The translations under genes and the position numbers were made by a program. From Desulfovibrionales bacterium (lineage in GTDB: Bacteria; Desulfobacterota; Desulfovibrionia; Desulfovibrionales; Desulfomicrobiaceae), in contig JAAYCS010000061.1 of assembly GCA_012729655.1 (NCBI GenBank), forward strand, positions 1 through 54,585: a DNA stretch of 54,585 nucleotides, in the 5' to 3' direction. Shown one piece after another: positions 2,116 to 45,095 of the stretch. Position 1 is the stretch's first letter. Every line of letters starts with the position of its first letter. The notes under the pieces were generated by a model. That model did not search any database, was not told the origin of the DNA, and saw only the letters and a list, made by a program, of their open reading frames with translations.

Positions 2116-2254
2116 ACCCGCTTAGCGGACCTGGCGCCCCGCCACGCCGGCTGAGCCGAAACTCGCGAACCCCTCCCGCGCACATGGTCCCGTCCGGCCC
2201 TGGGAGGCATCTCCGCCCGGCTGCAGACGCGAAATTTCCGACGCTGAAATGAAA

Positions 2255-3004
2255 TCAGGTCATGCCGGGCCAGGATTCCATTTGCCAACGCCGCAGGGCG
2301 TTGAACATGTTGGTGCGGATGCGTTTGTCCTTCCCGCACAGGCTCAGGGCACTCTCAAGGGTATCCGAGCGGGAGGTACTGTCCTTGGACGGGCACCTGT
2401 TCTCCCACACGGGCAGGTCCCATTGGCGGCACGCCTGGGTGATGGTGCTCTTGTCGAGCAGAAGCATGGGCCTGATCATGGTCAGCCTCCCCCCGAAATA
2501 CCCTTCCTTGGGCGCCAACCCATAGATCTTCCCTGTGTTGAGCATGTTCATGAAAAACGTGGACACGAGGTCGTCCGTATTGTGCCCCAGGGCCAGATGG
2601 GTCAGGTTGTATTGCCGGCAAAGGTCGAAAAGACGCTTGCGGCGGTGCCAGGCGCAAAAGAAACAGGGCGACTTCTTGCGATTCTCCGGGGAATGGGCCC
2701 GGGGGCCGAAGTCCGTCGTTTCCAGATGTCCGGCCACGCCATGAACTCTCATCCACTCCGCCAGGGGGGCGTGGGTCGAACCATCGAACCCGGGGTTGAG
2801 ATGGATGACAAAAAGCTCGATGGGAAAGGGGACGATGCGCTGGCGCATGGTCATGACCTGCAGCATGACCATGCTGTCGATCCCTCCGGACACGGCCAAA
2901 CCTATGCGCGCCCCGGGCCAGGCCATGCCTGCCTGCTGCATGATCTTTCCGGCCAGACCGAGGCAGGACTGCTGGGCATACTTGAGCTTTCCCCACTGGG
3001 CCAT
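2255..3004 (-). CDS. ttcA: TtcA-family tRNA 2-thiocytidine biosynthesis protein
   Basis: A 249-residue PP-loop ATPase. The nucleotide-binding signature SGGIDS is at residues 39-44. A CFFC pair is at 114-117, and a third cysteine occurs in RCPSKDSTSR towards the C-terminus. That three-cysteine arrangement is the one TtcA uses to hold the Fe-S cluster that thiolates cytidine 32 of tRNA. The HLALGHNTDDLVSTFF motif is also typical of TtcA rather than TilS. The ATG at 3004 is preceded by AGGAG. It is shorter than E. coli TtcA (about 310 aa) but complete at both ends. TtcA paralogues exist, so the exact tRNA substrate is inferred. It is divergent from rpoZ. Confidence 0.82.
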   Translation of the reverse strand: MAQWGKLKYAQQSCLGLAGKIMQQAGMAWPGARIGLAVSGGIDSMVMLQVMTMRQRIVPFPIELFVIHLNPGFDGSTHAPLAEWMRVHGVAGHLETTDFGPRAHSPENRKKSPCFFCAWHRRKRLFDLCRQYNLTHLALGHNTDDLVSTFFMNMLNTGKIYGLAPKEGYFGGRLTMIRPMLLLDKSTITQACRQWDLPVWENRCPSKDSTSRSDTLESALSLCGKDKRIRTNMFNALRRWQMESWPGMT

Positions 3005-3234
3005 GATCTTCTCCTGACCTTTCGGATTTGACAGATGCGAAACGGGTATTAGAATTTGAGTTCACATGCCGCTACAAAGCCAAAGCTGGCCTGTAAAGTG
3101 TTCTGTTGGCGGGCACGAATTGTGCATTGACAGCCACGCGGGGTTGTGCGTAGCAAGAAAAGTTATGCCTGACTCGACGAGGGCCGGGCATTTCTTTTGT
3201 CTTCAATGCATGTCGATATATACCTGGAGGGGAA

Positions 3235-26034: not shown

Positions 26035-26510
26035 GCCAATCCTCCACTTTTCGGCTTTTGCGCAGGAAAAAAATTACATTTCTTCCCCCATGGAGCAGCC
26101 CGCCCCTCACCACTATCCAAGCATTCCAGCCGGACAGTTCTGTGCACAGGCAAAAGATGCTTCCTGCCTGGCAGAACAGAAAAACCGTACGCCCTTGCTC
26201 GAAAACCGCGAAATCCTGTTGCAGATCAACGTCCTTTTAGAACAAAATTCGCCTGGACCCGCTCAATTCCTTGACTCCCTATGTCGAGAGGCATATCCAC
26301 TGGTCTGGATTTGAGATCATGCTGGACGCGCTTTCATGACTACGTAATGCATGTCTTGTAATTCATCTTGAAAATATAAAAGATCATTAAAAAATAAAAA
26401 CTGCGTAGTAATTTGCATAAATAATATGCAGTATATTTAATTATTGACGTATTTATCGCCTAGAAAATTCATTATAACTGAAAAAATATATCATCGCATC
26501 CAGTTTTGCT
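26035..26510. other. 476-bp intergenic region, AT-rich towards the Hyf-like operon
   Basis: No gene supported. A short plus-strand frame at 26090-26314 has no ribosome site and no recognisable family. The last 180 bp (from about 26330) is much richer in A+T than the surrounding DNA. It includes an inverted repeat TGCATA-N5-TATGCA at 26414-26430 and a TTGACG at about 26442-26447. This is the likely promoter and regulator-binding zone for the divergent operon at 26511. Confidence 0.5.
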
Positions 26511-28454
26511 ATGGATATTTCCTTGTTACTCTTATGCTCTTTGATCGGAATGCTTGGCGGTATGGCAAGCATGTCCTTTCCCCGATGGTGGGCTGCATGT
26601 ACCTTGACTGGTGCAATCACGGCTTTTCTGGCAGGAACCATTGTGCTGACCGGCCAGCCCGGATGGTCCTGGAAGAGCGATTTCCTCCTGGGAGGAACCC
26701 CTCTTACCCTGCTCCTCGATGCCGTCAGCGCCTTTTTTCTGGTTCTCCTTTCCACCGTAGCCGCAGCAGGTTCCATCTACGCCATCAGGTACTGGCCCGA
26801 CTCGACCCATCCCCGTACCGCCCCATCCGGCCGCCTGTGGTGGAACGCCATGATTACAGGCATGGGCCTCGTCCTGACTGCCGCCAATGGACTGCACTTC
26901 CTCCTTGGATGGGAACTCTTTGCGGTCAGCGCCTATTTTCTGGTCAGTCTGGAGCGAGGCAATCCCCAAGTCCGTGCAGCCGGCTGGCTGTACCTGGCCG
27001 CATCCCATGTGGGTACCCTGGCCCTCTTCGCTTTTTTCGCATCTCTGGCCGCGCAAACAGGAAGCTGGGAATTGGGACCCATGCGGGACAATGTGGAACT
27101 CGCCCCCCTTTTCTGGCTGGCATTCCTCGGTTTCGGCATCAAGGCCGGCGTGTTCCCCCTGCACGTCTGGCTGCCATCGGCCCATGCAAACGCTCCGAGC
27201 CATGTCTCCGCACTGCTTTCGGGCGTGGCACTCAAGATCGGTATCTACGGGCTGGTTCGTTTCAGTGGCTGGCTCCCGACGCCCCCAGGCGCGGGCTGGG
27301 TCATGGCTGGACTGGGATGCACGAGCGCCGTGCTCGGCGTGGCCTTCGCCCTGGGACAGCACGACCTCAAAAGGCTCCTGGCCTACCACAGCGTGGAAAA
27401 CATCGGCATCATTCTGATGGGCCTGGGATTTGCGACCGTGGCCCTGGAGCGGGACACGCCGTACTGGGGCACCCTGGCCCTGGCTGGAGGATTGCTGCAC
27501 GTATGGAACCATGGCCTGTTCAAGTCGCTGCTGTTCTTTGGTGCCGGGGCCGTGCTGCATGCCACAGGAACGCGCCAAATGAGCCGGCTGGGTGGCCTGT
27601 GGCGGCACATGCCGTGGACCGCCGCCCTGTTCACCCTCGGTTCCGTGGCCATCAGCGGACTACCGCCCCTGAATGGTTTCGTCAGCGAATGGCTGATCTA
27701 CTCCGGACTCCTTTTGGCAGGCATGGAATGGAACGATGTGGCCATGGCTGTCATTCCGGCCGCAGTGCTTCTGGCCGTGACCGGAGCTTTGGCCCTGGCC
27801 TGTTTCACCAAGGTCTGCGGAGTGGTGTTCCTTGGTGCGCCCCGTTCTGCGCCAGCCGAACGCGCCCACGAATGCGGCTGGGGCATGCGCGGGGCCATGC
27901 TGATGCTGGCTGCCGGATGTACGCTCATCGGCCTCTTCCCGGCCATGTTCTGGCAGGTTCTCTCCCGCGTGGCCAAGGATTGGTCCGCTGTGGACATGTC
28001 CAGCCGCGCCCCGGATGCACTGTACACCCTCGGCTTGACCCATGTGGCCCTGGCTGTCCTGGGACTGGCGGCCGGGGTTGGCACGATATGGTTCCTGCGC
28101 AACCGGGTGCGCAGATCCGTGACCTGGGATTGCGGCTTCTCCGCTCCCTCTGCCCGCATGCAGTACACGGCGGGCTCCTTCGCGGGCATCATCAACGAGT
28201 GGTTTGCCTGGATTCTGCGACCCACGGTGCATGAAATCCGGCCCACAACCTTTTTTCCATCCGCGGCCCAGTGTGCGTCCCACACTCCGGAAACAGTGCT
28301 TGAACATGTGGTCGAACCCGTTGGGCATAAGATTCTGCGCTTGGCGGACAAGGCCAGCGGCTTTCAGCATGGCCGGGTCCAATCCTACATCTTCTACCTG
28401 TGCGTCGCCATCCTGGTTCTGTCTGCAGCGGCAATCCTGAGTGGCAGGTCATAG
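26511..28454 (+). CDS. HyfB/NuoL-like antiporter subunit, first copy
   Basis: A 647-residue polytopic membrane protein of the proton-translocating NADH dehydrogenase/hydrogenase-4 subunit B family. Conserved channel features are GWELFAVSAYFL (glutamate in a membrane helix), FGIKAGVFPLHVWLPSAHANAPSHVSALLSGVALK (two lysines) and LLAYHSVENIGII. The C-terminal RRSVTWDCGF is typical of HyfB. It is the first gene of an eight-gene operon and is closely similar over its whole length to the second copy at 29168. No Shine-Dalgarno is visible before the ATG. The start is supported by alignment of its N-terminus with the second copy. Probable role: H+ or Na+ translocation. Confidence 0.88.
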   Translation: MDISLLLLCSLIGMLGGMASMSFPRWWAACTLTGAITAFLAGTIVLTGQPGWSWKSDFLLGGTPLTLLLDAVSAFFLVLLSTVAAAGSIYAIRYWPDSTHPRTAPSGRLWWNAMITGMGLVLTAANGLHFLLGWELFAVSAYFLVSLERGNPQVRAAGWLYLAASHVGTLALFAFFASLAAQTGSWELGPMRDNVELAPLFWLAFLGFGIKAGVFPLHVWLPSAHANAPSHVSALLSGVALKIGIYGLVRFSGWLPTPPGAGWVMAGLGCTSAVLGVAFALGQHDLKRLLAYHSVENIGIILMGLGFATVALERDTPYWGTLALAGGLLHVWNHGLFKSLLFFGAGAVLHATGTRQMSRLGGLWRHMPWTAALFTLGSVAISGLPPLNGFVSEWLIYSGLLLAGMEWNDVAMAVIPAAVLLAVTGALALACFTKVCGVVFLGAPRSAPAERAHECGWGMRGAMLMLAAGCTLIGLFPAMFWQVLSRVAKDWSAVDMSSRAPDALYTLGLTHVALAVLGLAAGVGTIWFLRNRVRRSVTWDCGFSAPSARMQYTAGSFAGIINEWFAWILRPTVHEIRPTTFFPSAAQCASHTPETVLEHVVEPVGHKILRLADKASGFQHGRVQSYIFYLCVAILVLSAAAILSGRS

Positions 28455-28484
28455 TTTCGGAAACACTCAAATCTCACTCACATC

Positions 28485-29171
28485 ATGTACCTCAATCTTA
28501 TCCAAATTGCTGAATCCTTCGGCGTGTCAGAAAGTGTCGTCACCGACTGGGTGCGCAAGGAAGGCATGCCTCACGTCCATGACCGGGGCCGCATCCTCTT
28601 CGAACGCTCCCAGGTTATGGAATGGGCCGCCAAGCATGGGCTTGCCGCCCATACCGGCTTTCTGTCGGAACCTGCTCCGGCCCAGGCCGACACTCTGGCT
28701 CTGGGGCCTCTGCTTCGTCGTGGCGGGATCTGGCGTGACGTGCTGCAGACCGACCTGCCTCAGATCTGTGATCGCATCGTCGGCCGGCTTCCGGGCCTGC
28801 CCGGTCCCGTGCAGAACATGCTCGTGCAACGCATGTGCGCTCCCGGCGGGGTGAACATCGCCCCTGTGGGCAGCGGCTTCGCCCTGCCCCATCCGGCCAT
28901 GCGTGTCTCCCTGGGCGAAGACTGCGCCCTGGTGGCCCTGATCCTGCTCAAGACCCCCTTCACCGAGGCCGATCCGCCTGACGGAATACCCATCACGCGC
29001 ATGCTTTTTTTCATTTCCCCCACCCCCCGCCTGCACGTGAACATGCTCGGCCTGCTGGCCAAAGGCATCACCTCAGGGGCACTGCAGAACCTGGATGCAG
29101 AAATGGACGACGAGGCCATTTTCAAAGTTGTCGAGAAGGGAGCAGACACCCATAAAGGGCTGCCTCGATGA
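28485..29171 (+). CDS. HTH-EIIA(Ntr) fusion protein (PtsN-like) inside the Hyf-like operon
   Basis: A 228-residue two-domain protein. Residues 1-52 form an excisionase/MerR-like helix-turn-helix (LIQIAESFGVSESVVTDWVR, then RGRILFERSQVMEW). Residues about 72-220 resemble the PTS EIIA nitrogen-regulatory domain. The phosphoacceptor is probably H136 in GSGFALPHPAMR. EIIA(Ntr) proteins signal phosphorylation state and control transporters and kinases rather than sugar uptake. The stop overlaps the start of the second HyfB (ATGA, 29168-29171), so its synthesis is tied to the complex. Whether it binds DNA, the complex, or both is unknown. Confidence 0.82.
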   Translation: MYLNLIQIAESFGVSESVVTDWVRKEGMPHVHDRGRILFERSQVMEWAAKHGLAAHTGFLSEPAPAQADTLALGPLLRRGGIWRDVLQTDLPQICDRIVGRLPGLPGPVQNMLVQRMCAPGGVNIAPVGSGFALPHPAMRVSLGEDCALVALILLKTPFTEADPPDGIPITRMLFFISPTPRLHVNMLGLLAKGITSGALQNLDAEMDDEAIFKVVEKGADTHKGLPR

Positions 29172-31105
29172 TCCCACCGTTCTTCTTTGGGTCCCTGGCC
29201 TGCCTGTGCCTGGCCATCCTGAGCGGACGATTCCCCCGCCTCTGGCTTGCCTTGGTTCTGTCCGGAGCGGGCTGCGCCCTCATCAGCGCAGCCCAAGTCC
29301 TGGGAGACGCGGGAAATTGGGCATGGGAAGCCTCGTTCACCCTCGGCTGCCAGACCCCACAATTTCTCGTGGATGGCATTTCCGCCCTTTTCCTTGTTCC
29401 GGTCAGCGTGATCGGAGGGCTGAGCGCAGTCTACTCCCGCGAATACTGGTCCGATCACCACCATCCGGATTCGGCTCCCCGTGGCCGGTCCTGGAGCGCG
29501 GCCCTGATCCTGGGCATGATCCTGGTCTTGAGCCTGGCCAACGGACTGCATTTCCTGCTGGCGTGGGAAATCTTCGCCATCAGCGCCTACTTCCTCATCA
29601 CCCTGGACAATACCGCACCGGAAACGCGGAAGGCCGGCTGGCTCTACCTGGCCGCCTCCCATGCCGGAACCATGATCCTTTTCGCCTTTTTCTCGGCCGT
29701 GGCTGCCCGCACCGGGAGCTGGGCCCTGGGCCCCATGCGTGACCAGGCCGCCCTGGCCCCCCTCTTCTGGCTGGCCCTGTGCGGCTTTGGAGTCAAAGCA
29801 GGCCTCTTTCCCCTGCACGTCTGGCTGCCTTCGGCCCATGCCAACGCACCAAGCCACGTCTCGGCCTTGATGTCCGCCGTGGCCATCAAGATGGGCGTTT
29901 ACGGCATTGTCCGCTTCAGCGCCTGGCTCCCACTCCCCCCGGGGGCTGGATGGGTCGTGCTGGGGCTTGGGGCCATGAGCGCTCTCCTGGGCATCGCTTT
30001 CGCCATGGCTCAGAACGATTTCAAGCGCCTGCTGGCCTACTGTTCCGTGGAAAACATCGGCATCATTCTGACCGGACTGGGACTGGCCATCCTGGCCATG
30101 GCCAATGGGCAGGCAGCCTGGGGCCGGGTGGCCCTGTGCGGAACCCTGCTGCATGTCTGGAACCACAGCCTGTTCAAGTCCCTCCTTTTTCTTGGGGCGG
30201 GCTCCGTGCTCCATGCCACGGGAACCCGGGACATGAGCCGGCTTGGCGGACTGTGGAGGTTCCTGCCCTGGACCGCGTCGCTCTTTGCCCTGGGATCGGC
30301 GGCCGTGTCCGGTCTTCCGCCCCTGAACGGTTTTGTCAGTGAATGGATGATCTACCTCGGGCTGATCCGGGCTGTGGCGGCCAAAGGCCCCGTGTCCGGG
30401 GCCATCGTTCCGTCCGTCATCGTCCTGGCCGCCGCCGGAGCCCTGGCCCTGGCCGCTTTTGCCAAGGCTGTGGCCATCATCTTCCTCGGTGCCCCGCGGA
30501 CCAGGCGCACTGCCCCTGTGCAGGAGTGCGGTTGGGGCATGCGCGCGCCCATGCTTGTCCTGGCCGGGCTCATGCTCTGGGTCGGACTGTTTCCGGCCAT
30601 GGCCCTCGGCCCCGCTGCAATCGCGGCCACGGCATGGAATCCGGGCTGGTCAGGAAATGTGGATATCCCCGTCTTCCATCTGGGCAGTCTGCACCTGCTT
30701 CTGGCCTGCGGACTGCTGGCCGCAGCGTATGTGGTCCTGCGCAAGGTCTCCCGAAACGGATTGCGCGACTCCCTGACCTGGGACTGCGGCTATGCCGCCC
30801 CCACCACACACATGCAGTACACCAGCGGCTCCTTTGCCGGCATCGTGACGCGATGGTTTGCGTGGATCTTGCGCCCCGCGCGTCTGGTCCGCAAGGTGCG
30901 CGGCCAGTTCCCCGAAAAAGCCCTCTACCTGGAACGGACCCCTGAAACCGTCCTTGAGTACTGCATTCACCCCCTGGGTAGGGGTGTGGGGCTGCTCGCC
31001 GAGGGAGCCAAAAAAATGCAGCACGGCCGGCTGCACCTCTACATCCTGTATGTTTTTGCCGGGGTCGTGGCCCTGGGCGGCATGGCCTTCTGGGGAGGTA
31101 TGTGA
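29168..31105 (+). CDS. HyfB/NuoL-like antiporter subunit, second copy
   Basis: 645 residues, co-linear and strongly similar to the protein from 26511. Shared blocks include PLHVWLPSAHANAPSHVSAL, LLHVWNH-x-LFKSLLF, GSVLHATGTRDMSRLGGLWR and SGLPPLNGFVSEW. The channel glutamate and lysines are kept (AWEIFAISAYFL, FGVKAGLFPLHVW, SAVAIKMGVYG). The pair is a tandem duplication separated by the EIIA-like gene. In E. coli Hyf the comparable slot is filled by HyfD; no HyfD-like gene is seen here. The stop overlaps the next start by one base (TGATG). Confidence 0.88.
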   Translation: MIPPFFFGSLACLCLAILSGRFPRLWLALVLSGAGCALISAAQVLGDAGNWAWEASFTLGCQTPQFLVDGISALFLVPVSVIGGLSAVYSREYWSDHHHPDSAPRGRSWSAALILGMILVLSLANGLHFLLAWEIFAISAYFLITLDNTAPETRKAGWLYLAASHAGTMILFAFFSAVAARTGSWALGPMRDQAALAPLFWLALCGFGVKAGLFPLHVWLPSAHANAPSHVSALMSAVAIKMGVYGIVRFSAWLPLPPGAGWVVLGLGAMSALLGIAFAMAQNDFKRLLAYCSVENIGIILTGLGLAILAMANGQAAWGRVALCGTLLHVWNHSLFKSLLFLGAGSVLHATGTRDMSRLGGLWRFLPWTASLFALGSAAVSGLPPLNGFVSEWMIYLGLIRAVAAKGPVSGAIVPSVIVLAAAGALALAAFAKAVAIIFLGAPRTRRTAPVQECGWGMRAPMLVLAGLMLWVGLFPAMALGPAAIAATAWNPGWSGNVDIPVFHLGSLHLLLACGLLAAAYVVLRKVSRNGLRDSLTWDCGYAAPTTHMQYTSGSFAGIVTRWFAWILRPARLVRKVRGQFPEKALYLERTPETVLEYCIHPLGRGVGLLAEGAKKMQHGRLHLYILYVFAGVVALGGMAFWGGM

Positions 31106-32010
31106 TGGAAGTCCTCGACATTCTCGCACGTCTTCTGGTCTGGCTGGTTCTGGCCCCCTTGCTTCCGGGTATCATCAACAAGGTCAAGGCCTGGGTGGCC
31201 TGCCGCCAGGGTCCTCCGGTGCTGCAGCTCTACTTTGACTTGGCCCGACTGTGGAGCAAGGGCGTGGTCATGAGCACCATGGCCTCGCCTGGATTTCTGA
31301 TTGCCCCGGCCGTGGCCTGGGTGGCCGTGGTGGCGGCGGCCATGCTCATGCCCCTGGGGCGCGCCGGGTGCATTTTTTCCTTTGACGGCGACGTGCTCCT
31401 GCTGGTCTATCTCCTGGCCCTGGCCCGTTTCAGCACGGCCTGGGGAGCCATGGAGACCGGCTCTGCCTTCGAGGGCATGGGCGCAGCCCGGGAAGTGAGC
31501 TTTGCTGTCCTGGCCGAAATCGGCATCATCACCGCCATTCTGACCCTGGCCCTGGAGTCCGGCAGCATCTCCTTGGCCTCCATGTTCACCCCCCCGCCCG
31601 GACCCGGAGCGGCCCTGTTGGCCGTAGGGCTGTTCATCATCCTGCTGGCTGAAAACTGCCGGGTCCCCTTCGACGATCCGAATACCCACCTGGAGCTGAC
31701 CATGATCCACGAGGTCATGGTTCTGGATCACAGCGGCCCTCCTTTCGCCCTGATTCTGCACGGGGCCGCCGTCAAAATGATGCTGTTCTCCGCACTGCTG
31801 GTCCAGGCCGTGCTGCCTTTGGCTCACATGCCTCTCGGCCTTTCGCTGGCCGCCATGGCCGGCGGCATTGTGCTGGTCGTGGTGGCCGTGGGCCTGGTCG
31901 AATCCCTGACGGCCCGTTTGGCCTTCCGGAGGGTGCCTCTCCTGCTGACCATCGGCTTCCTGTTTTGCCTCTTTCCCTTGCTCCTGACGTGGATGGAAGG
32001 TGTCTTATGA
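31105..32010 (+). CDS. HyfC/NuoH-like membrane subunit
   Basis: 301 residues from ATG 31105; an in-frame GTG one codon earlier is possible. It has about eight membrane segments. HyfC/HycD/NuoH-type features are LLPGIINKVKAWVACRQGPPVLQLYFDLARLWSK near the N-terminus, GAAREVSFAVLAEIG in the middle, and ENCRVPFDDPNTHLELTMIHE. This subunit anchors the peripheral arm and forms the entry of the quinone/proton pathway in complex I relatives. It overlaps the following gene by four bases. Confidence 0.9.
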   Translation: MEVLDILARLLVWLVLAPLLPGIINKVKAWVACRQGPPVLQLYFDLARLWSKGVVMSTMASPGFLIAPAVAWVAVVAAAMLMPLGRAGCIFSFDGDVLLLVYLLALARFSTAWGAMETGSAFEGMGAAREVSFAVLAEIGIITAILTLALESGSISLASMFTPPPGPGAALLAVGLFIILLAENCRVPFDDPNTHLELTMIHEVMVLDHSGPPFALILHGAAVKMMLFSALLVQAVLPLAHMPLGLSLAAMAGGIVLVVVAVGLVESLTARLAFRRVPLLLTIGFLFCLFPLLLTWMEGVL

Positions 32011-32651
32011 ATGAAATCCTCAATCTTCTCACTGGGCTGGCCGTGGGTCTCAACCTGCTGGCCCTGGGCACCAGCCGACTGCGCCTGCTGATCCGGGCCG
32101 TGGCCGCCCAGGGCGTCCTGCTCGGACTGTTGCCCCTCCTGCTCGAACACGGGGCCATGGACTGGCAGCTCGTGTTCATCACCATCGCCACCGTAGCCGG
32201 CAAGGGATTCATCATTCCCACCCTGCTGCACAGGGCCATGCGCACGGCCAACATCGCCCGTGAGCTGGAGCCCTTCATCGGCTATATCTCTTCGCTCCTT
32301 CTGGGTGCAGCCGCGACCATCGCCGCCGTGGTCATTGCCCAGCATCTGCCCCTTTTTCCTGAGCATGTCGGATCCCTGCTCGTGCCGGGGGCCATTGCCC
32401 TCATCCTGACCGGATTCATCCTGCTCATCGGCAGGACCAAGGCCATTTCCCAGGTTTGCGGCTACCTCATTCTGGAAAATGGGATCTACCTCTTCGGACT
32501 GCTGCTCATCCACGCGACCCCCATGCTGGTTGAATTCGGCATCCTTCTGGACGTCACGGTCGGCATCTTCATCATCGGCATCATTGTCGATCGCATCCAG
32601 AGGGCCTTCGATTCCCTTGACACCCGCAAACTCACGGCACTGCACGAATGA
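32007..32651 (+). CDS. HyfE-like membrane subunit (NuoK related)
   Basis: 214 residues from ATG 32007, which overlaps the HyfC-like stop (ATGA). It has about six membrane segments and the hydrogenase-4 component E pattern: GKGFIIPTLLHRAM and GYLILENGIYLFGLLL, with a membrane-embedded glutamate, and EFGILLDVTVGIFIIGIIVDRI near the end. HyfE carries the NuoK-like proton channel in an enlarged form. ATGA overlap with the following HyfF-like gene. Confidence 0.88.
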   Translation: MNEILNLLTGLAVGLNLLALGTSRLRLLIRAVAAQGVLLGLLPLLLEHGAMDWQLVFITIATVAGKGFIIPTLLHRAMRTANIARELEPFIGYISSLLLGAAATIAAVVIAQHLPLFPEHVGSLLVPGAIALILTGFILLIGRTKAISQVCGYLILENGIYLFGLLLIHATPMLVEFGILLDVTVGIFIIGIIVDRIQRAFDSLDTRKLTALHE

Positions 32652-34084
32652 AATCCCTATTGCTCATCCTCATTCCCTTCCTGGGGGCCATCCTCTCGGC
32701 CTTGTGGCCGAGCAATCGCACCCGACCCCTGTTTCTGCCCGTGTTCGCCCTGGCCCACACCCTGCTGGCATTCTGGTTTCTAACTCGGCCCCCGGGCTTC
32801 GACCCTGCCGCATGGCTGGCGTTCGACCCCCTGGCCCGGGCCATCCTGCCAGGCGTGTCCCTCCTCTTCCTGGCCTGCGCGGTCTACGCCGTCAGCTACC
32901 TGCGCCTGCATCCCCAGGACAACCGGGTCTTCGTGGCAGCACTGCTCCTGGTGCTGGGACTCTTGAGCGCCGGGCACCAGGCCCGGCACCTTGGCATCCT
33001 GTGGATCGCCACGGAGGCCGTGACTTTGGCCGCCGTGCCCTTGATCCATTTCCTGGGTACACCCCGGGCCTTCGAGGCCACCTGGAAATATCTCCTCGTC
33101 GGGGGCACCGGCATCGCCCTGTCCCTGCTCGGCTCCATCTGCCTGGGCTACGCGTCCCTCCATGGCGGAGGATCCGGAGATATCACCTTCACGGCCCTTC
33201 TCGAACACGGTCCCCTGCTGTCCAAAGTCTGGGTCCTGGCGGCCTGGGTTCTTCTCCTCGTCGGCTACGGTACCAAGATGGGCCTTGCTCCCATGCACAC
33301 CTGGAAGCCCGACGCGTATGGAGAGAGCCCGGGCATAGTCGGCGCCATTCTGGCCGGTGGAGTGACCTCCGTGGCCTTCATGGCTCTGCTGCGCATAAAG
33401 TCCGTCATCGACGCGGCCGGAGAATCGGTTTTCGCGTCCCGCACCCTGCTCGGCCTCGGCCTCTTCTCCACCCTGGTGGCGGCCCTGTTCCTGCTCCGCA
33501 CGCGAGACTTCAAGCGCATGCTTGCCTACTCCAGCATCGAACACATGGGCATCCTGAGCATCGCTGCGTCCTTTGGGGCGCCGGGCGCGTGGGCCGCGCT
33601 CTTCCATATCTGGAGCAACGGTCTGACCAAAGGCGCCCTGTTCCTCAGCGCCGCCAACCTGCAGCGAGCCGCCAAATCCTCCTCCATGGATGACGTCCGG
33701 GGCATGTCCTTGATTCTGCCCCGATCATCGCGCATCTTCGTGGCCGGCATGTTCGCCATCACGGCCTGCCCACCCTTTGCCCCTTTCTTCAGCGAGCTGC
33801 TCATCATCCGGGTGGGCCTGGGCGCGGGCCAGGGCTGGGCCATCGGCCTCTTTCTTTTCTGCCTGCTGCTGGCCTTCCTGGGATTGTCCCGCATCGTGTT
33901 TGCCGTCGTTGACGGCCGGCCCCGCCTGAAAAACCCCGAACGCATTCATCTCAAGGAGACGGCCGGCATCATCGCGCCGTCCCTTGCCCTGCTTGTGGCC
34001 TCCCTCTGGCTCGGACTGTTCACCCCTCAGGTCCTTCGGGACGCATGGTCCGCAGCTCTTCTCCAACTCTTTGCACAGCCATGA
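32648..34084 (+). CDS. HyfF-like antiporter subunit
   Basis: A 478-residue polytopic protein of the NuoN/NuoL/MrpD superfamily. The HyfF signature is GYGTKMGLAPMHTWKPDAYGESPGIVGA. A channel glutamate lies in LWIATEAVTLAAVPL, and LLAYSSIEHMGIL follows. It is the third antiporter-like subunit in the operon, after the two HyfB copies. The last bases overlap the large-subunit gene (ATGA, 34081-34084). Confidence 0.9.
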   Translation: MKSLLLILIPFLGAILSALWPSNRTRPLFLPVFALAHTLLAFWFLTRPPGFDPAAWLAFDPLARAILPGVSLLFLACAVYAVSYLRLHPQDNRVFVAALLLVLGLLSAGHQARHLGILWIATEAVTLAAVPLIHFLGTPRAFEATWKYLLVGGTGIALSLLGSICLGYASLHGGGSGDITFTALLEHGPLLSKVWVLAAWVLLLVGYGTKMGLAPMHTWKPDAYGESPGIVGAILAGGVTSVAFMALLRIKSVIDAAGESVFASRTLLGLGLFSTLVAALFLLRTRDFKRMLAYSSIEHMGILSIAASFGAPGAWAALFHIWSNGLTKGALFLSAANLQRAAKSSSMDDVRGMSLILPRSSRIFVAGMFAITACPPFAPFFSELLIIRVGLGAGQGWAIGLFLFCLLLAFLGLSRIVFAVVDGRPRLKNPERIHLKETAGIIAPSLALLVASLWLGLFTPQVLRDAWSAALLQLFAQP

Positions 34085-35562
34085 ACACACTTGCCCCATT
34101 TTTCATCTTCCCCAACGGATCTAGCGTCTCCTGGCCGGCAGTGCCGGTTTTCTCCATCACCAAGCTGGTCCGGGTCACGGGCGAACTCCTGGACCGGGGA
34201 GCCCGCATCTGCTCCTGGTTCGGGGTTCAGGATCACGAGGAAACATGCCTGGTCGCAATTCTGGCCATGGATTCCGAAAGCGTCCTGGGGGTGGCCCGCA
34301 GCGAACCCATCAGCGGATCCTACCCATCCCTGACCCCCAGATATCCCCAGGCCCACCTTTTTGAGCGCGAGGTCTGGGAACAGCACGGGCTGGTGCCCCT
34401 GGGACACCCCTGGATCAAGCCCGTGCGCCATGCCAACGGGACGGCCCCGGCCAACGCCCCCTTTTTCCGCGTTGACGGGGGCGAAGTGCATGAGGTGGCC
34501 GTGGGCCCGGTTCACGCCGGTGTCATCGAACCTGGCCATTTCCGCTTCCAGTGCCAGGGGGAGGAAGTTTTGCACCTGGAGATCGCCCTGGGCTACCAGC
34601 ACCGGGGCGTCGAGGAGCACATGGGCGGCGGTCCGCACCGGGCCACCATGAGTCAGATGGAGACTGTTTCCGGGGACGCGACCATTGCCCACGCCACAGC
34701 CCATGCCATGGTCATGGAGTCCCTGGCCGGAATCGAGGCCCCCCTCAGGGCCCAATGGCTGCGCGCCCTGGCCCTGGAACTGGAACGCCTGGCCAACCAC
34801 ACTGGCGACATGGGAGCCCTGGCCGGAGACGTGGCCTTTCTGCCGACCATGTCTGCCTGCGGCAAGATCCGGGGCGATTTTCTGAACCTGACGGCCCTCA
34901 TGTGTGGAAACCGGTTTGGCCGCGGATTGATCCGCCCAGGCGGATGCCGGCATGATCTGGATCCCCAGCGGCTGCAGACCCTGAAAGCCAGGCTTGAGAC
35001 CCATCTGGCCGACGTGGAGCAGGCCACGGCTTGGTTCTGGGACGCGGCCTCGGTCCGGGTCCGCTTCCTTAACGTGGGGGTCGTGCATACGTCCCAGGCC
35101 TCGGACATCGGTCTGGTCGGGCCGGCCGCGAGGGCCAGCGGGCTGGTCAGGGATGTGCGCTACGACCACCCGGCCGGATGGCACCGATTCTCCCAGGCTC
35201 CTGTCGCGGTCTGGCCCAGCGGGGACATTTTAGCCCGCGCCCGGGTCAAATCCCTGGAAATTCAGCGGTCTGGCCGTTACCTGCTGGAACAGCTCGACGG
35301 GCCAGTGGACGGAGACATCCTCGCACCAGCCCCTGTCCCAGCGCCCGAATCCCTGACCGCGGCCCTGGTGGAAGGGTGGCGAGGGGAAGTCTGTCACGCC
35401 GCCCTGACTGACCACAGCGGTCGGTTCCGGCGCTACAAGATCACGGACCCCTCGTTCCACAACTGGACCGGTCTGGCCCTGTCCTTGCGCGGTACGGCCA
35501 TCTCGGACTTCCCGCTCTGCAACAAGAGCTTCACTCTGTCCTATTGCGGCTTCGACCTCTAG
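34081..35562 (+). CDS. HyfG-like large subunit lacking most NiFe ligands (Ehr type)
   Basis: 493 residues from ATG 34081. An N-terminal NuoC-like domain (about 1-130, with PRYPQAHLFEREVWEQHGL) is fused to a NuoD/hydrogenase-large-subunit domain (EIALGYQHRGVEEHMGGG). In NiFe hydrogenases the first ligand motif reads RxCGxC. Here the aligned region is METVSGDATIAH, with S197 and A200 in place of the two cysteines. The C-terminal motif normally ends DPCxxC; here it is DFPLCNKSFTLSYCG, with at most one cysteine (C480) retained. A standard NiFe centre therefore seems impossible. The match is to energy-converting hydrogenase-related (Ehr) complexes. Electron acceptor and reaction unknown. Confidence 0.85.
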   Translation: MNTLAPFFIFPNGSSVSWPAVPVFSITKLVRVTGELLDRGARICSWFGVQDHEETCLVAILAMDSESVLGVARSEPISGSYPSLTPRYPQAHLFEREVWEQHGLVPLGHPWIKPVRHANGTAPANAPFFRVDGGEVHEVAVGPVHAGVIEPGHFRFQCQGEEVLHLEIALGYQHRGVEEHMGGGPHRATMSQMETVSGDATIAHATAHAMVMESLAGIEAPLRAQWLRALALELERLANHTGDMGALAGDVAFLPTMSACGKIRGDFLNLTALMCGNRFGRGLIRPGGCRHDLDPQRLQTLKARLETHLADVEQATAWFWDAASVRVRFLNVGVVHTSQASDIGLVGPAARASGLVRDVRYDHPAGWHRFSQAPVAVWPSGDILARARVKSLEIQRSGRYLLEQLDGPVDGDILAPAPVPAPESLTAALVEGWRGEVCHAALTDHSGRFRRYKITDPSFHNWTGLALSLRGTAISDFPLCNKSFTLSYCGFDL

Positions 35563-35572
35563 GAGACCGTTC

Positions 35573-36355
35573 ATGTATATTTTCGATACGTTGACCAATC
35601 GTCTCAAACGCGGCTGCATGACCATGGCATTTCCCAAGGGCCCGGCCCCGGATCTGCCCGACCGCCACGGCGGGGCCTTGCGCCTGGATCCGTCGAAATG
35701 TTCCGCAACATGCGCGTTGTGCGTGGAGGTCTGCCCGAGTCAGGCCATCGTCAGATCCAACGGTCAACTCCGCCTGGATCTGGGCCGCTGCCTGTTCTGT
35801 GCGGACTGCGTCACGGCCTGCCCCCAGGGGGCCATCCAGCAGACCAACGACCACCGCCTGGCAGCCAGACGCAGGGAGGATCTGGTCCTCAGCCCCGCAC
35901 AGACGGAAATGCGGCTGGCCGAAGCACTGGACGAAAAGATGCGACGCCTGTTCGGCAGGTCTCTGCGCCTGCGGCAGGTCAGCGCGGGAGGATGCGGAGC
36001 GTGCGAGGCGGACATCAACGTGCTGGGGACCATCGGCTGGGACCTGAGCAGATTCGGCATCCAGTATGTGGCCTCCCCCCGGCATGCCGATGGCGTGCTC
36101 ATCACCGGACCCGTGTCCAAGGGCATGGAACTGGCTCTGCGCAAGACATGGGAGGCCGTGCCCGAGCCGCGCATCGCCATCGCCGTGGGCGCCTGCGCCA
36201 TCAGCGGGGGACCCTTTGCCGGACACGCCCAGACCAACGACGGGGCGGGATCCATCGTGCCCATCGACCTCCACATCCCTGGCTGTCCGCCGCATCCCCT
36301 CACCATTCTGGACGGATACCTGCGCCTGCTGGACCGGCTGGAAAAAAATCGTTGA
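35573..36355 (+). CDS. HyfH-HyfI fusion: ferredoxin domain plus NuoB-like small subunit
   Basis: 260 residues. Residues 38-90 carry two [4Fe-4S] motifs (C43, C47, C50, C54 and C73, C76, C79, C83), as in HyfH/NuoI. Residues 130-255 are NuoB-like, with the four ligands of the proximal N2-type cluster: C141 and C144 (GGCGACEAD), C208 (VGACAISGGPF) and C238 (IPGCPPHP). In E. coli Hyf these are two separate proteins. The intact cluster set shows an electron wire even though the large subunit lacks a NiFe site. TAGGAG precedes the ATG. Last gene of the operon; converges on gluQRS. Confidence 0.88.
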   Translation: MYIFDTLTNRLKRGCMTMAFPKGPAPDLPDRHGGALRLDPSKCSATCALCVEVCPSQAIVRSNGQLRLDLGRCLFCADCVTACPQGAIQQTNDHRLAARRREDLVLSPAQTEMRLAEALDEKMRRLFGRSLRLRQVSAGGCGACEADINVLGTIGWDLSRFGIQYVASPRHADGVLITGPVSKGMELALRKTWEAVPEPRIAIAVGACAISGGPFAGHAQTNDGAGSIVPIDLHIPGCPPHPLTILDGYLRLLDRLEKNR

Positions 36356-38086: not shown

Positions 38087-39748
38087 CTACTTGCCGGCCA
38101 TCATGGCCGCGATGTCGTCCTGCACCGTGCCGATGGGCTTCAGGTCGAACTTCTCGACCACGACCTTGGCCACGGCCGGGGACAGGAAACCCGGCAGGGT
38201 GGGGCCGAGGCGAATGCCCTTCACGCCGAGAAACAGGAGGGCCAGGAGCACTGCCACGGCCTTCTGCTCGTACCAGGCGATGTCGTAGGACACGGGCAGC
38301 TTGTTGATGTCGTCGAGACCGAAGACCTCTTTGAGCTTCAGGGCGATGACGGCCAGGGAGTAGGAGTCGTTGCACTGCCCGGCGTCCAGCACCCGCGGGA
38401 TGCCGCCGATGTCGCCGAGGTTCAGCTTGTTGTAGCGGTACTTGGCGCACCCGGCCGTGAGGATGACCGTGTCCTTGGGCAGGGCCTCGGCCACCTCGGT
38501 GTAGTAGCTCCTGGCCTTCTGCCGCCCGTCACAGCCGGCCATGACCACGAAGCGCTTGATGGCGCCGGACTTGACTGCCTCCACCACCTTGTCGGCCAGG
38601 GCCATGACCTGATGGTGGGCGAAGCCGCCGACGATGGTCCCCTTTTCCAGTTCCGTGGGCGGCGCGCATTTCTTGGCCTGGGCGATCATGGCCGAGAAGT
38701 CCTTGGCCCCGCCCGCAGGACGTTCCGGGATGTGCTTGGCGCCCTCGTAGCCCACCACGCCCGTGGTGTAGAGGCGGTCCAGATAGGTGTTCTCTTTTTT
38801 GAGCGGCACCAGACAGTTGGTGGTCAACAGGATGGGGCCGTTGAACGCCTCGAACTCGGGGTTCTGGTGCCACCAGGAACCGCCGTAGTTGCCGATGAAG
38901 TGTTTGTACTTCTTGAAGGCCGGATAGTAGTTGGCCGGAAGCATCTCGCCGTGGGTGTAGACGTCCACGCCCGTGCCCTCGGTCTGCTTCAGGAGCTCTT
39001 CCATGTCCTTGAGGTCATGGCCGCTGATGAGGATGCCGGGGTTCGTGCCCGCGCCGATGTTGACCTGGGTCATCTCGGGATGGCCATAGGTCTTCGTGTT
39101 GGCCTCGTCCAGCAGGGCCATGGTCGTCACCGCGACCTGTCCGGCCTTCATGACCAGGCCGACCATCTCGTCCACGGACAGATTCTTGGTCGTCGAAGCC
39201 AGGGCCTCCAGCATGAAGTCGTCGATCTCGGGCTTGCGGAAGCCCAGCACCGCGGCGTGCTCGGCGTAGGCCGCGATGCCCTTCAGGCCGATGATGAGGA
39301 ACTCGCGCAGGGAGCGCACGTCCTCGTTCTCCGTGGCCAGGATACCGACGGCCTTGGCCTTGTCGGCGAAGGTCGCCGACGATCCGCTCCAGGTCGCTGC
39401 GTCAGGCAGGGGCTCGCTGAAGTCCTTGCCGTGCTTGGCCTTGTAGGCGGCCAGAAAGGCGCTTCTGAGCCTGTCCCGGCGGGCCAGGCCGTCCTGGATC
39501 ATGGCCGTGAAGCGGGCGTCGTCCCAGTTGGCGTTGGTGATGGTGGCGAACAGGCCCTGCAGCACGAAGTCGTCGTTGGAGCGGTCCGGACTCCCCAGTT
39601 CCTTCAGGCGTTCGCCGTACACGGCGATGCCGCGCAGAACGAAGATCAGCAAATCCTGCAGGTTGGCGGTCTCTTCCGGCTTGCCGCACATGCCCTTGAC
39701 CGTGCAGCCAGTATTTTTGGCCGTTTCCTGACACTGAAAACAGAACAT
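38087..39748 (-). CDS. hcp: Hybrid cluster protein (hydroxylamine reductase)
   Basis: 553 residues from ATG 39748 with AAGGAGG upstream. Cysteines 3, 6, 15 and 21 ([21 protein letters not shown]) have the compact spacing of class I Hcp from strict anaerobes. Hybrid 4Fe-2S-2O cluster ligands are visible in [21 protein letters not shown] and [11 protein letters not shown]. Hcp reduces nitric oxide or hydroxylamine and protects against nitrosative stress. It lies downstream of the HPP and CBS genes on the same strand, opposite nrfHA. The Hcr reductase partner is not adjacent. An imperfect inverted repeat lies in the 90-bp gap upstream (about 39817-39836). Confidence 0.95.
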
Positions 39749-39838
39749 AGAGCCTCCTTTTGTGGCCATGACAGACCGTGGCCGGTTAGTGATCAGACGC
39801 GGCTGACCAGGGTGCAAATGATGTTTCACCAATGGCGA

Positions 39839-40375
39839 TCAAAACCAGAATTCCGGATACCGCCTGCTTTTCGGCAGGTTGTTGACCAGTACGGCGACGG
39901 CGAGGAGCATGGACGCTCCCAGTCCCACCGGAGCCAGGGCGTAGAAAAAGCCCAGCCTGTGCACAGACTCCCCGCCAATGACGGCGATGAGGGCCGTGGC
40001 TCCTCCCGGAGGATGCAGTGTCCTGCTCGCGTGCATGGCCGCAATGGCAGTGGAGACCGCGACCGCTGCGGCCAGCCACGGCACGTGCCCCAGGACCTGC
40101 TGCGTGCATACGCCGATCAAGGCGGAAAGAACATGACCTCCGAGCACATTTCGCGGCTGGGCCAGGGGGCTGCGCACAGCCCCGTAGACGAGGACAGCCG
40201 TGGCGCCGAAGGAACCGATCAGGAGGCCCTGGCCCAGCCGGTCGACAAAGGCGGACCCCATGAGGCCCACCAGGGCAATGCCCAGAAAGGCACCTATCCA
40301 GGACCAGACAATCTCGACAACCCGGACCCGGGGCGGACTCTGGGTTGTGCCGCGCATTTTCTTGAAATAGTCCAC
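39839..40375 (-). CDS. HPP-family integral membrane protein
   Basis: 178 residues with four or five membrane segments. The family-defining motif is ASRTLHPPGGATALIAV. The N-terminal part has IGAFLGIALVGLMGSAF and LIGSFGATAVLVYGA. Some plant and cyanobacterial HPP proteins transport nitrite into plastids or cells; that is known for those homologues only. Its position 3 bp after a CBS-pair gene and 90 bp before hcp, near nrfHA, supports a role with nitrogen oxides, but the substrate is inferred. Confidence 0.85.
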   Translation of the reverse strand: MDYFKKMRGTTQSPPRVRVVEIVWSWIGAFLGIALVGLMGSAFVDRLGQGLLIGSFGATAVLVYGAVRSPLAQPRNVLGGHVLSALIGVCTQQVLGHVPWLAAAVAVSTAIAAMHASRTLHPPGGATALIAVIGGESVHRLGFFYALAPVGLGASMLLAVAVLVNNLPKSRRYPEFWF

Positions 40376-42257: not shown

Positions 42258-42734
42258 ATGAATCGTAAGAAAGATGACTCTGGGGGCCGCAGCTGGCGTT
42301 ACGCCTTGCCTCCGGCCATCATCGGCGTTGTGCTCACGGTGGGGGCTGCCATCGCCATGAACACCACGGACCAGGCCATGTTCTGCGGCAACTGCCATTC
42401 CATGGCCGAGGCGGCCCTGACCCACAAGCGGTCTGTGCACGCCGAACTGGCCTGCAACGAGTGCCATGCCCCGCACAACATCGTGGCCAAGATCCCCTTC
42501 AAGGCCAAAGAGGGCACCCGTGACGCTCTGGCCACGGTCACCAGCAAGATCCCGGATCTGATTCATCCGGGCGAACACACCAAGGACGTGACCCAGGCCA
42601 ATTGCCAACGCTGCCACGAAGCAACCACCAGCACCGTGGTCATGCAGAGCAAGAAGTTCTGCACGGATTGCCACCGTCACGTGCCCCACACTCCCAAAAT
42701 CCCCGTAGCCAAAAGGAGCGCCGCCGATGCGTAG
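42258..42734 (+). CDS. nrfH: Cytochrome c nitrite reductase membrane subunit NrfH
   Basis: 158 residues. A basic N-terminus and one membrane anchor (about 17-35) lead to a periplasmic domain with four CxxCH haem sites, starting at C43, C66, C116 and C135. The first reads CGNCHSM, with the methionine that ligates haem 1 in the NapC/NirT family. NrfH oxidises menaquinol and passes electrons to NrfA. A strong AGGAGGGAAGG precedes the ATG. It overlaps nrfA by 8 bases. Confidence 0.96.
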   Translation: MNRKKDDSGGRSWRYALPPAIIGVVLTVGAAIAMNTTDQAMFCGNCHSMAEAALTHKRSVHAELACNECHAPHNIVAKIPFKAKEGTRDALATVTSKIPDLIHPGEHTKDVTQANCQRCHEATTSTVVMQSKKFCTDCHRHVPHTPKIPVAKRSAADA

Positions 42735-44289
42735 CACCAAAACCCTTTTCACCCTGCTGGCCGTGGGCTGCGCCCTGGCCTTGACGGCCTGCATCGACAC
42801 ATCCGATCCCAAGACACCTGAATTCAAAACAAAGCTCAAGCAGGAAGAAATCAAAAATTCGGCCTTCAAGTCCGAGTTTCCGCTCCATTACGAGACATTC
42901 CTGCGCAACAACGAATCCGAGATCATGACCGAATACGGCGGATCCGTGGCCTACAACAAGCACGACAACGTCAACCCCCTGCCCGAAGGGTACAAGCACG
43001 CCCAGCCGTACCTGAAGAACCTCTGGCTCGGATATCCCTTCAGCTACGAATACCGGGCCGCTCGCGGACATACCTATGCCCTGAAGGATATCCTGCACAT
43101 CGACCGTCTGAACCGCTATGACGAAAAGGCGGGCCTGCCCTCGACCTGCTGGAACTGCAAGGGCGCGAAAATGCTCGAATGGACCAAGGAACATGGAGAC
43201 GACTTCTGGGCCAAGGATTTCAACCAGTTCCGTGAACAGGTCGACATGGACGAGAACACCATCGGCTGCGCCAACTGTCACGACCCGTCCAACATGGAGC
43301 TGCGCCTCTATTCCGTGCCCCTGCAGGATCACCTGAAGGCCGAAGGCAAGGACTTCAAAACCCTGCCCCGCAACGAGCAGCGCGCCCTGGTCTGCGGCCA
43401 GTGTCATGTGGAATACTATTTTCAGGACAAAAGCTTTGGACCGGCCAAAAAACCGGTATTCCCCTGGGCCCAAGGCAAGGATCCCGAACAGATGTACACC
43501 TATTACAAGAATCACGGCGACTACAACGGCACGGGATTCGAGGGCAATTTCGTGGACTGGATCCATCCGGTGTCCAAGACACCCATGCTCAAGGCCCAGC
43601 ACCCCGAGTACGAGACCTGGCACAACGGCGTGCACGGGGCGGCCGGCGTATCCTGCGCCGACTGCCACATGAGCTACACCCGTCTGGACGGCAAAAAGAA
43701 GATGTCCAACCACCATTGGACGTCTCCACTGAAGGATCCGGACATGAAGGCCTGCCGCCAGTGCCATACGGACAAGACCCCTGACTACCTCAAGCAGCGC
43801 GTGGTCTACACCCAGCACAAGGTCTGGGAGCAGCTCATGGCCGCCCAGGACATCTCGGTCAAGGCCCACGAGGCCATCCGCATGGCCAACGAATTCCAGG
43901 GTGATAAGCCGGCCAATTACGATCAGCTCATGATCAATGCCCGGGAAATGTGCCGCAAAGGGCAGTTCTTCTGGGATCTCATCTCGGCCGAGAACAGCGT
44001 CGGATTCCACAACCCGACCAAGGCCCTGGACACCCTGGCCAAGTCCCAGCAGTACAGCCAGAAGGCCGTGGACATCGCCATCCAGGCCGCAGCCTTCACC
44101 ACGGCCGAGGCCCTGTCCAAGGACATCAAGGAACTGGTGCCGCCCATCATGAAGCACAGCCGCGAATTGCAGATGGATCCGGCGCACATGGCCACCCACC
44201 AGTGGTTCCAGTACCTGAAGGTCACGCCCAAGGCCGAGAAGATCTGGGAAGGCAACAAACGCCTGATCCCGGCCCCGGCCACCAGCTGA
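42727..44289 (+). CDS. nrfA: Cytochrome c nitrite reductase catalytic subunit NrfA
   Basis: 520 residues. It reduces nitrite to ammonium with six electrons in the periplasm. The N-terminus has a signal with a lipobox-like LTAC, so it may be a lipoprotein. The active-site haem uses CxxCK (C141-WN-C144-K145). Four CxxCH sites follow: CANCH, CGQCH, CADCH and CRQCH. The length fits pentahaem NrfA. It forms a complex with NrfH. In sulfate reducers the enzyme also detoxifies nitrite, which inhibits sulfite reductase. A terminator follows. Confidence 0.97.
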   Translation: MRSTKTLFTLLAVGCALALTACIDTSDPKTPEFKTKLKQEEIKNSAFKSEFPLHYETFLRNNESEIMTEYGGSVAYNKHDNVNPLPEGYKHAQPYLKNLWLGYPFSYEYRAARGHTYALKDILHIDRLNRYDEKAGLPSTCWNCKGAKMLEWTKEHGDDFWAKDFNQFREQVDMDENTIGCANCHDPSNMELRLYSVPLQDHLKAEGKDFKTLPRNEQRALVCGQCHVEYYFQDKSFGPAKKPVFPWAQGKDPEQMYTYYKNHGDYNGTGFEGNFVDWIHPVSKTPMLKAQHPEYETWHNGVHGAAGVSCADCHMSYTRLDGKKKMSNHHWTSPLKDPDMKACRQCHTDKTPDYLKQRVVYTQHKVWEQLMAAQDISVKAHEAIRMANEFQGDKPANYDQLMINAREMCRKGQFFWDLISAENSVGFHNPTKALDTLAKSQQYSQKAVDIAIQAAAFTTAEALSKDIKELVPPIMKHSRELQMDPAHMATHQWFQYLKVTPKAEKIWEGNKRLIPAPATS

Positions 44290-44312
44290 CGGTTCCTGCG
44301 AAAGCTTCCGCG

Positions 44313-44352
44313 CGAGGGGTTTCGGTCTGAAGACTGGAACCCCTCGTGATTT
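44313..44352 (+). terminator. Intrinsic terminator after nrfA
   Basis: CGAGGGGTT (44313-44321) pairs with AACCCCTCG (44338-44346). The 16-nt loop can itself form a GTCT/AGAC stem. TGATTTT follows. It lies 23 bp after the nrfA stop. Confidence 0.75.
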
Positions 44353-44411
44353 TCCTGCCTGCGCAGGAACATGAAAACTATGGCAAGGGTGTACCGCATG
44401 GGAGGTCAGCA

Positions 44412-45095
44412 ATGAAGGTCCACGTTCTGCAGCATGTCGCTTTCGAGGGCATCGGCAGTATGGAAGGATGGCTGAAGAGACGCGCGGCGACAGTCACGCA
44501 CACCCGCTTCTTTACGTCTCCGGCTCTGCCCGCCAATCCTGAATTTGACCTCGTCATCGCCATGGGCGGACCCATGAGCGTGCATGACGAGGCGGAATTT
44601 CCCTGGCTGGCGGAAGAGAAGCGGTTCCTGCGGGCGGCCATGGAGCGCCAGGTTCCGGTCCTGGGTGTCTGTCTGGGCGCCCAGCTCATCGCCAGCGCCC
44701 TGGAGGCAAGGGTCTGCCAAGGCAGGGAAAAGGAAATCGGCTGGTTTGATGTGGAGGGCCAGCCCGCAGCGGATGCGTTCTGCTTTCCGGAACGGATAAA
44801 GGTCTTCCACTGGCACGGGGAGACCTTCGACCTTCCCCCAGGGGCGCAGCATCTGGCCCGCAGCGCCGCATGCTTCAACCAGGCGTTTGCATACCGACGC
44901 AACGTCCTGGGCCTGCAGTTCCACCTGGAGGCCACGCCCGCATCCATAGAGGCCATGATCGCCCATTGTGGCCGGGAACTGATTCCGGCGCCCTTTGTCC
45001 AGGGCAGGGAGGAAATCCAGTCTGCCACGGCCCAGGATTTTCAACGCATCAACACCCTGATGGAGGATGTACTGGACTACCTCGCGCCACGCTAG
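44412..45095 (+). CDS. Class I glutamine amidotransferase (GMP synthase-like domain)
   Basis: 227 residues from ATG 44412, preceded by GGGAGG. A longer open frame starting at 44346 overlaps the nrfA terminator. The catalytic triad of class I GATases is visible: nucleophile C87 in GVCLGAQL, and H171/E173 in FHLE. The oxyanion region is MGGPMSVHDE. Stand-alone members of this group are annotated as GuaA-like; their acceptor substrates are unknown. It is not part of a purine operon here. Converges on the cobQ fusion with a 17-bp gap. Confidence 0.88.
   Translation: MKVHVLQHVAFEGIGSMEGWLKRRAATVTHTRFFTSPALPANPEFDLVIAMGGPMSVHDEAEFPWLAEEKRFLRAAMERQVPVLGVCLGAQLIASALEARVCQGREKEIGWFDVEGQPAADAFCFPERIKVFHWHGETFDLPPGAQHLARSAACFNQAFAYRRNVLGLQFHLEATPASIEAMIAHCGRELIPAPFVQGREEIQSATAQDFQRINTLMEDVLDYLAPR

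Follow-up and report, generated by a model that had tools for sequence, protein, structure and literature searches.

Among the described systems closest to the gene cluster examined here is the energy-converting hydrogenase-related (Ehr) locus of Geobacter sulfurreducens, GSU0739-45, which encodes EhrA-1, EhrC, EhrL and EhrS and has been called hydrogenase-related (PMC7894505, PMC8691401). The name EhrA-1 suggests a second NuoL-like copy in this organism. The passages of the two papers that deal with the locus make no mention of an EIIA gene, and one of them states that its role was never investigated (PMC7894505). Other relatives are formate hydrogenlyase and Hyf of Escherichia coli, complex I, and the membrane-bound sulfane sulfur reductase (MBS) of Pyrococcus furiosus. 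We analysed a stretch of 54,585 nucleotides (hereafter, the window) from a draft genome of a sulfate-reducing bacterium of the genus Desulfomicrobium (GCA_012729655.1, contig JAAYCS010000061.1; 2.84 Mb, 88.6% complete). Eight genes on the + strand (26511..36355), in the order HyfB1, HTH-EIIA, HyfB2, HyfC, HyfE, HyfF, HyfG and HI, encode an Ehr-type complex, which is hydrogenase-related and not a hydrogenase, with the same subunit classes as those reported in the passages on G. sulfurreducens. They also encode HTH-EIIA, a protein in which a helix-turn-helix (HTH) domain precedes a domain with the EIIA(Ntr) fold of the phosphoenolpyruvate (PEP) phosphotransferase system (PTS). HTH-EIIA beside Ehr genes is common, not universal, and we think it on the whole probable that this protein is a dedicated PTS-linked regulator of an Ehr pump in which HyfB1 and HyfB2 alternate.

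The first-pass annotation of this DNA had proposed an Ehr-type complex with three antiporter-like subunits and a reaction that is not known, and had named a conserved NiFe site in the large subunit as evidence to the contrary. The proposal stands: the complex is of a known kind. Ehr complexes are recognised by a NuoD/HycE-like large subunit that lacks the NiFe cysteines, a NuoB-like small subunit with ferredoxin-type clusters, and Mrp/HyfB-type antiporter-like subunits with a NuoH-like anchor. The corresponding products of the operon are HyfG (34081..35562), a NuoC-NuoD/HycE-like fusion; HI (35573..36355), in which a two-[4Fe-4S] ferredoxin (NuoI/HycF-like) is fused to a NuoB/HycG-like small subunit; the antiporter-like subunits HyfB1 (26511..28454), HyfB2 (29168..31105) and HyfF (32648..34084; PF00361 E=8.4e-44); and the NuoH/ND1-like membrane anchor HyfC (31102..32010; PF00146 E=6.4e-30). 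HyfE (32007..32651) is a small NuoK-like membrane subunit (NF008556 E=9.4e-24, below the cut-off of that profile; PF00420 E=0.0037).

Among solved structures, HyfG is closest to HycE in both sequence and fold, as would be expected if the operon encoded a true group 4 NiFe hydrogenase. However, HyfG has other residues at each of the four NiFe cysteine positions (S197, A200, S487 and G490), unlike a second large subunit encoded in the same genome (contig C24), which carries RVCGIC and DPCISC. Of 61 relatives, two show a cysteine at one of these positions, at 197 alone. The hydrogenase reading is thus already refuted by sequence and we give it almost no chance; the residue pattern, read from the alignment, excludes a standard NiFe hydrogenase. 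Compared with HycE of formate hydrogenlyase (PDB 7z0s) and with Hyf, HyfG is alike in the fold of both halves, in the glutamate of the beta1-beta2 loop, in the canopy arginine and in the hydrogenase-type proton-path residues (His/Arg/Glu), all of which are kept. It differs in the absence of the NiFe ligands, in the replacement of the canopy aspartate by T485 and in the addition of three cysteines, C158, C480 and C489, and the window operon, unlike that of formate hydrogenlyase, has no formate dehydrogenase gene. These cysteines are conserved: Cys158 (codon at 34552..34554) in 61 of the 61 aligned sequences, and Cys480 and Cys489, within a C-terminus (35518..35562, Cys480 to the stop) that replaces the hydrogenase DPCxxC motif, in 59 and 60 of the 61, respectively.

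The fold of HyfG and the absence of NiFe are shared with complex I (NuoD/Nqo4), and the operon might encode an oxidoreductase of the complex I type that passes electrons from ferredoxin to a quinone in a non-canonical pocket. In the alignment, however, the positions of Nqo4 H38 and Y87 (residue roles as given in a passage of PMC7684303) are occupied by I149 and G198, and the canonical quinone His/Tyr pair is therefore absent. The small-subunit half of HI has a hydrogenase-type CxxC at the proximal cluster, whereas complex I is described with adjacent cysteines, and the operon lacks an NADH module. The residue pattern thus argues against a standard quinone site, and we regard a quinone-reducing complex as rather unlikely. 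Less likely still, in our view, is an MBS-like reduction of a sulfur compound or disulfide that uses the conserved cysteines or the proximal cluster. The near-invariance of C158, C480 and C489 is consistent with such a reaction, and MBS is a solved relative in which the NiFe ligands are partly lost, with a NiFe-degenerate large subunit and antiporter-like subunits as in the window. On the other hand, MBS retains MbsL C85 and C385, whereas in HyfG all four ligand positions are empty and the conserved cysteines lie elsewhere; the two leftover MbsL cysteines were shown to be non-catalytic, and the MBS proximal cluster has three cysteine ligands, as opposed to four here. Moreover, the predicted model of HyfG is of low confidence at residues 489–493, making the position of C489 too uncertain to be used. 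The residue pattern narrows the range of reactions to those that may use protons but do without NiFe and without the standard quinone pair.

HTH-EIIA (28485..29171) begins with an HTH_17 domain (excisionase/MerR-like), scored at 30.2 bits in the window protein (cut-off 27) and above the Pfam cut-off in each of three relatives scanned. The rest of the protein is predicted to adopt the EIIA fold (AlphaFold, predicted local distance difference test 85.7), the top four VIA matches being EIIA-Ntr structures. The predicted phospho-acceptor, His136 (codon at 28890..28892, within GFALPHP), is conserved in 39 of 41 aligned sequences, including that of the window, and genes for EI and HPr, as well as a separate one for PtsN, are present in the same genome. 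HTH-EIIA differs from PtsN in that its EIIA domain is fused behind an HTH and in that its gene accompanies those of an ion pump or of a ClC channel. The fold, the histidine and the presence of EI and HPr fit a regulator, and HTH-EIIA is probably phosphorylated and probably binds DNA. Alternatively, unphosphorylated HTH-EIIA might dock on HyfB (or ClC) and gate ion flux, the HTH being a dimerisation relic; we consider this improbable, given that HTH_17 scored above its cut-off in all four proteins.

The neighbourhood of HTH-EIIA was surveyed in 81 genomes (the source genome and relatives), in 395 genomes of the phylum, where matches of at least 160 bits were considered strong, and at the best 80 named Ehr loci. 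Among the 81 genomes, full-length HTH-EIIA was found in the 12 genomes of the genus with the operon and in G025, in which it lies behind HI (C-E-F-G-HI-EIIA-B); two further matches spanned the HTH only. The phylum sample yielded at least 61 full-length matches, and 41 of those listed were strong. HyfG lay within 8 kb of 36 of these 41; a further three were followed by a HyfB gene reaching the edge of the fetched stretch, and the remaining two were at contig ends (L200, and G419, in which the match starts at base 6 of the contig). Strong HTH-EIIA was present at 38 of the best 80 named Ehr loci, and at 29 of the 47 among them that had sufficient flanking sequence and a HyfB or HyfC gene on the same contig. 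The named rows of a larger HyfG tree (78 rows, quick version) were labelled with 14 phyla. This linkage across surveys rules out the PTS regulator as an oddity of a single genome.

HTH-EIIA is usually the first gene (EIIA-B-(B)-C-E-F-G-HI), as in Geomonas limicola (L107), one of four Geobacteraceae loci (with L123, L133 and L161) whose HyfG is 51–54% identical to that of the window. Its position between two HyfB genes is one clade's layout variant, which Desulfomicrobium shares with part of a Verrucomicrobiota/Planctomycetota clade. The first-pass annotation had called both the layout and the regulator within it unusual, and had suggested a search for the gene order in other genomes. The exact order was recovered in the two groups just named and, in this sense, the placement between the HyfB copies is indeed the less common one; neither the presence of HTH-EIIA, which is common beside Ehr within the phylum and outside it, nor the doubling of HyfB is unusual. 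Multi-term queries of the open-licence literature, a weak search, turned up no paper that links HTH-EIIA to Ehr or ClC, and, as far as that search could tell, the partnership is a conserved and apparently undescribed feature. In a Planctomycetales metagenome-assembled genome (MAG; L099), HTH-EIIA occurs as a tandem pair (1524–3010) ahead of two HyfB genes, and a second, diverged Ehr-like operon with a HyfG 35–39% identical adjoins the first at L095 (12302–19900), L242 and L243.

Thirteen HTH-EIIA matches (123–145 bits; L225–L237) were not near HyfG and represent a second subfamily: each of the 13 is directly followed, on its own strand, by a gene for a ClC chloride channel homologue. Identity to the L225 copy was 51–61% for twelve of these homologues, and two of the 13 are cut by contig ends. 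Voltage_CLC and CBS domains (Pfam) were confirmed in six of them, and also at the more distant locus L244, where HTH-EIIA likewise lies directly upstream of the channel gene. At six of these loci (L225, L227, L231, L233, L234 and L236), the ClC gene is followed by a gene for a protein of 276–291 residues, of one kind by eye. The company of two unrelated ion-transport systems is the strongest hint to the role of HTH-EIIA.

Complex I has one ND3. Both HyfB1 and HyfB2 of the window carry a C-terminal ND3-like extension with the loop motif WDCG, and a passage of PMC9474812 describes the C-terminal extension of HycC as homologous to ND3. As each copy has such an extension and a complex I-type machine has one, the two are best taken as alternative subunits, which would alternate and give two versions of the pump. 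Both keep the lysine motifs of transmembrane helices 7 and 8 and the glutamate motif of helix 12; the helix 5 glutamate was recognised by eye (GWE and AWE), the search pattern used for it being uninformative (0 of 93 HyfB rows, with the GWE and AWE of the window also missed). In a quick HyfB tree, HyfB2 clustered with the copies that lie downstream in the Verrucomicrobiota/Planctomycetota clade (7 rows, support 100). The 19-row group (100) that contains them also takes in Desulfomicrobium HyfB1, which stands apart from the clade's upstream copies. Two copies are also present at several Geobacteraceae loci, and are thus not unique to Desulfomicrobium; the Geobacteraceae/Pelobacter pair formed a group of its own (99), so that the doubling arose more than once. 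HTH-EIIA is kept in 2 of the 12 genus genomes with the operon in the absence of an intact HyfB2: in G001 (99% complete) the middle of HyfB2 is deleted, and in G005 (L063) no HyfB2 lies between HTH-EIIA and HyfC. No significant match to a HyfB2 remnant was found at L063, and the loss there is deduced from absence only.

Several observations weigh against a dedicated PTS-linked regulator of alternating pumps. The EIIA half of the window protein is strongly diverged, with a PTS_EIIA_2 score of 14.9 bits (cut-off 27), although three relatives passed this cut-off, and 2 of the 41 aligned sequences (L139 and L160) lack the equivalent of His136. HTH-EIIA was absent from 18 of the 47 flanked named loci, L139 and L160 among them having a weak HTH-EIIA-like neighbour. 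It was also absent within 15 kb of 33 of 67 HyfG matches of at least 550 bits, and from all 17 operons with the six core genes in order in Desulfovibrionales outside the genus, G025 apart; 13 of these 17 were negative with an HTH-EIIA profile too. Conversely, G316 and G400 have a strong HTH-EIIA and no HyfG at E<=1e-60; both matches sit in fragmented assemblies, and that of G400 precedes a HyfB gene. No palindrome was common to all 11 upstream regions examined, and no genus-wide operator site was found among them. WDCG is missing in 28 of the 93 HyfB rows (other loci and the window), and HyfB1 and HyfB2 may, by analogy with MbsH and MbsH', act jointly in one complex. The many Ehr operons without HTH-EIIA indicate that it is not required for Ehr function and would suit a passenger gene irrelevant to the pump; we find this very unlikely in view of the linkage across phyla, the retention of HTH-EIIA in the two genus genomes without HyfB2, and the fact that the strong phylum-sample matches listed adjoin Ehr genes or contig ends.

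Palindromes nevertheless occur upstream of individual operons. The window has a perfect inverted repeat, TGCATA-N5-TATGCA (26414–26430), within AT-rich sequence 97 bases upstream, absent from the ten other regions examined; nothing is concluded from it, since other members of the genus have different palindromes. At L053, L054, L057, L059 and L060, AAAGTGA-N6-TCACTTT, with a variable spacer, occupies roughly positions 29 to 10 ahead of the called HyfB1 start and resembles CRP/FNR-type sites, and L055 has the reverse arrangement, CTTCTCAC-N6-GTGAGAAG, upstream of HyfB1.

The operon appears to have reached Desulfomicrobium from another lineage. In a 38-row HyfG tree, the five Desulfomicrobium rows branched beside an Akkermansiaceae MAG (96/90), within a 15-row clade (100/100) including ten Verrucomicrobiota/Planctomycetota rows. 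Vertical inheritance in Desulfovibrionales, as one clade of 13 rows, was rejected for HyfG (approximately unbiased test, p 8e-11), the 13-row group having been picked after the first tree was seen. HTH-EIIA shows a matching pattern, being 44–50% identical to that of eight Verrucomicrobiota clade members and 15–27% identical to the 31 other non-genus rows. The simplest explanation is lateral transfer into Desulfomicrobium, its direction being indicated by the nesting of the Desulfomicrobium HyfG within the Verrucomicrobiota/Planctomycetota clade. All ten clade relatives are MAGs, so that mis-binned contigs are possible; this is unlikely, because ten different bins form one clade. HyfG and the Geobacteraceae copies constitute one homologous family by alignment; the deep branches of the tree were poorly supported and the G. 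sulfurreducens sequence was left out.

Consecutive genes overlap by 4 bases at five junctions, with gaps only between HyfB1 and HTH-EIIA (30 bases) and between HyfG and HI (10 bases). This confirms the eight-gene unit read from the layout in the first-pass annotation, and the genes are probably co-transcribed as one operon. Scans for sigma-70 promoters (3 against 1.9 expected) and terminators (9 against 7.9) were near chance. The operon is flanked on the left by the divergent mraZ and rsmH and on the right by a convergent class I tRNA synthetase-like gene (tRNA-synt_1c). The mraZ-rsmH pair lies upstream in 8 of the 12 genus loci; three others are too short upstream, and the roughly 4 kb upstream of the operon at L063 contains none. 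The tRNA-synt_1c neighbour was found at none of the 12 loci. Further downstream, on the minus strand, a gene for a hybrid-cluster (Prismane) protein adjoins one for an HPP-family membrane protein (38087–40375), and a 590-residue open reading frame without a Pfam match at E 0.001 (42640–44412) overlaps one of 520 residues on the opposite strand. An 857-residue protein (45113–47686, minus strand) combines class I/II aminotransferase, CbiA and GATase_3 domains, which suggests a fused cobalamin-synthesis enzyme, with parts that are presumably CobD-like and CobQ/CbiP-like.

We propose that ferredoxin, as the likely donor, would feed electrons through the two [4Fe-4S] clusters and the one proximal cluster to the HyfG pocket that has lost NiFe, where a redox reaction would take place, and that the joined membrane arm (HyfC, HyfE, HyfF and HyfB) would pump ions. 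EI and HPr would pass phosphate to the single histidine of the EIIA(Ntr)-like domain, and the small HTH domain would control expression of the adjacent ion-transport genes, Ehr or ClC according to subfamily. The cell would thereby tie ion pumping to its PEP-linked phosphorylation state. More tentatively, and with somewhat more doubt than confidence, HTH-EIIA proteins of many phyla may make up a class of one-component regulators, so far undescribed, that are driven by the PTS and dedicated to membrane ion flux (Ehr and ClC), and the Ehr pumps under their control may have an active site of a third type for the complex I superfamily, with no NiFe, no canonical quinone pair, the hydrogenase proton path and three conserved cysteines elsewhere. 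The parallel with ClC suggests that ion conductance is linked in general to the PEP-phosphotransferase state. A conserved dedicated regulator also offers a handle on Ehr, as its signal would tell when the pump is needed.

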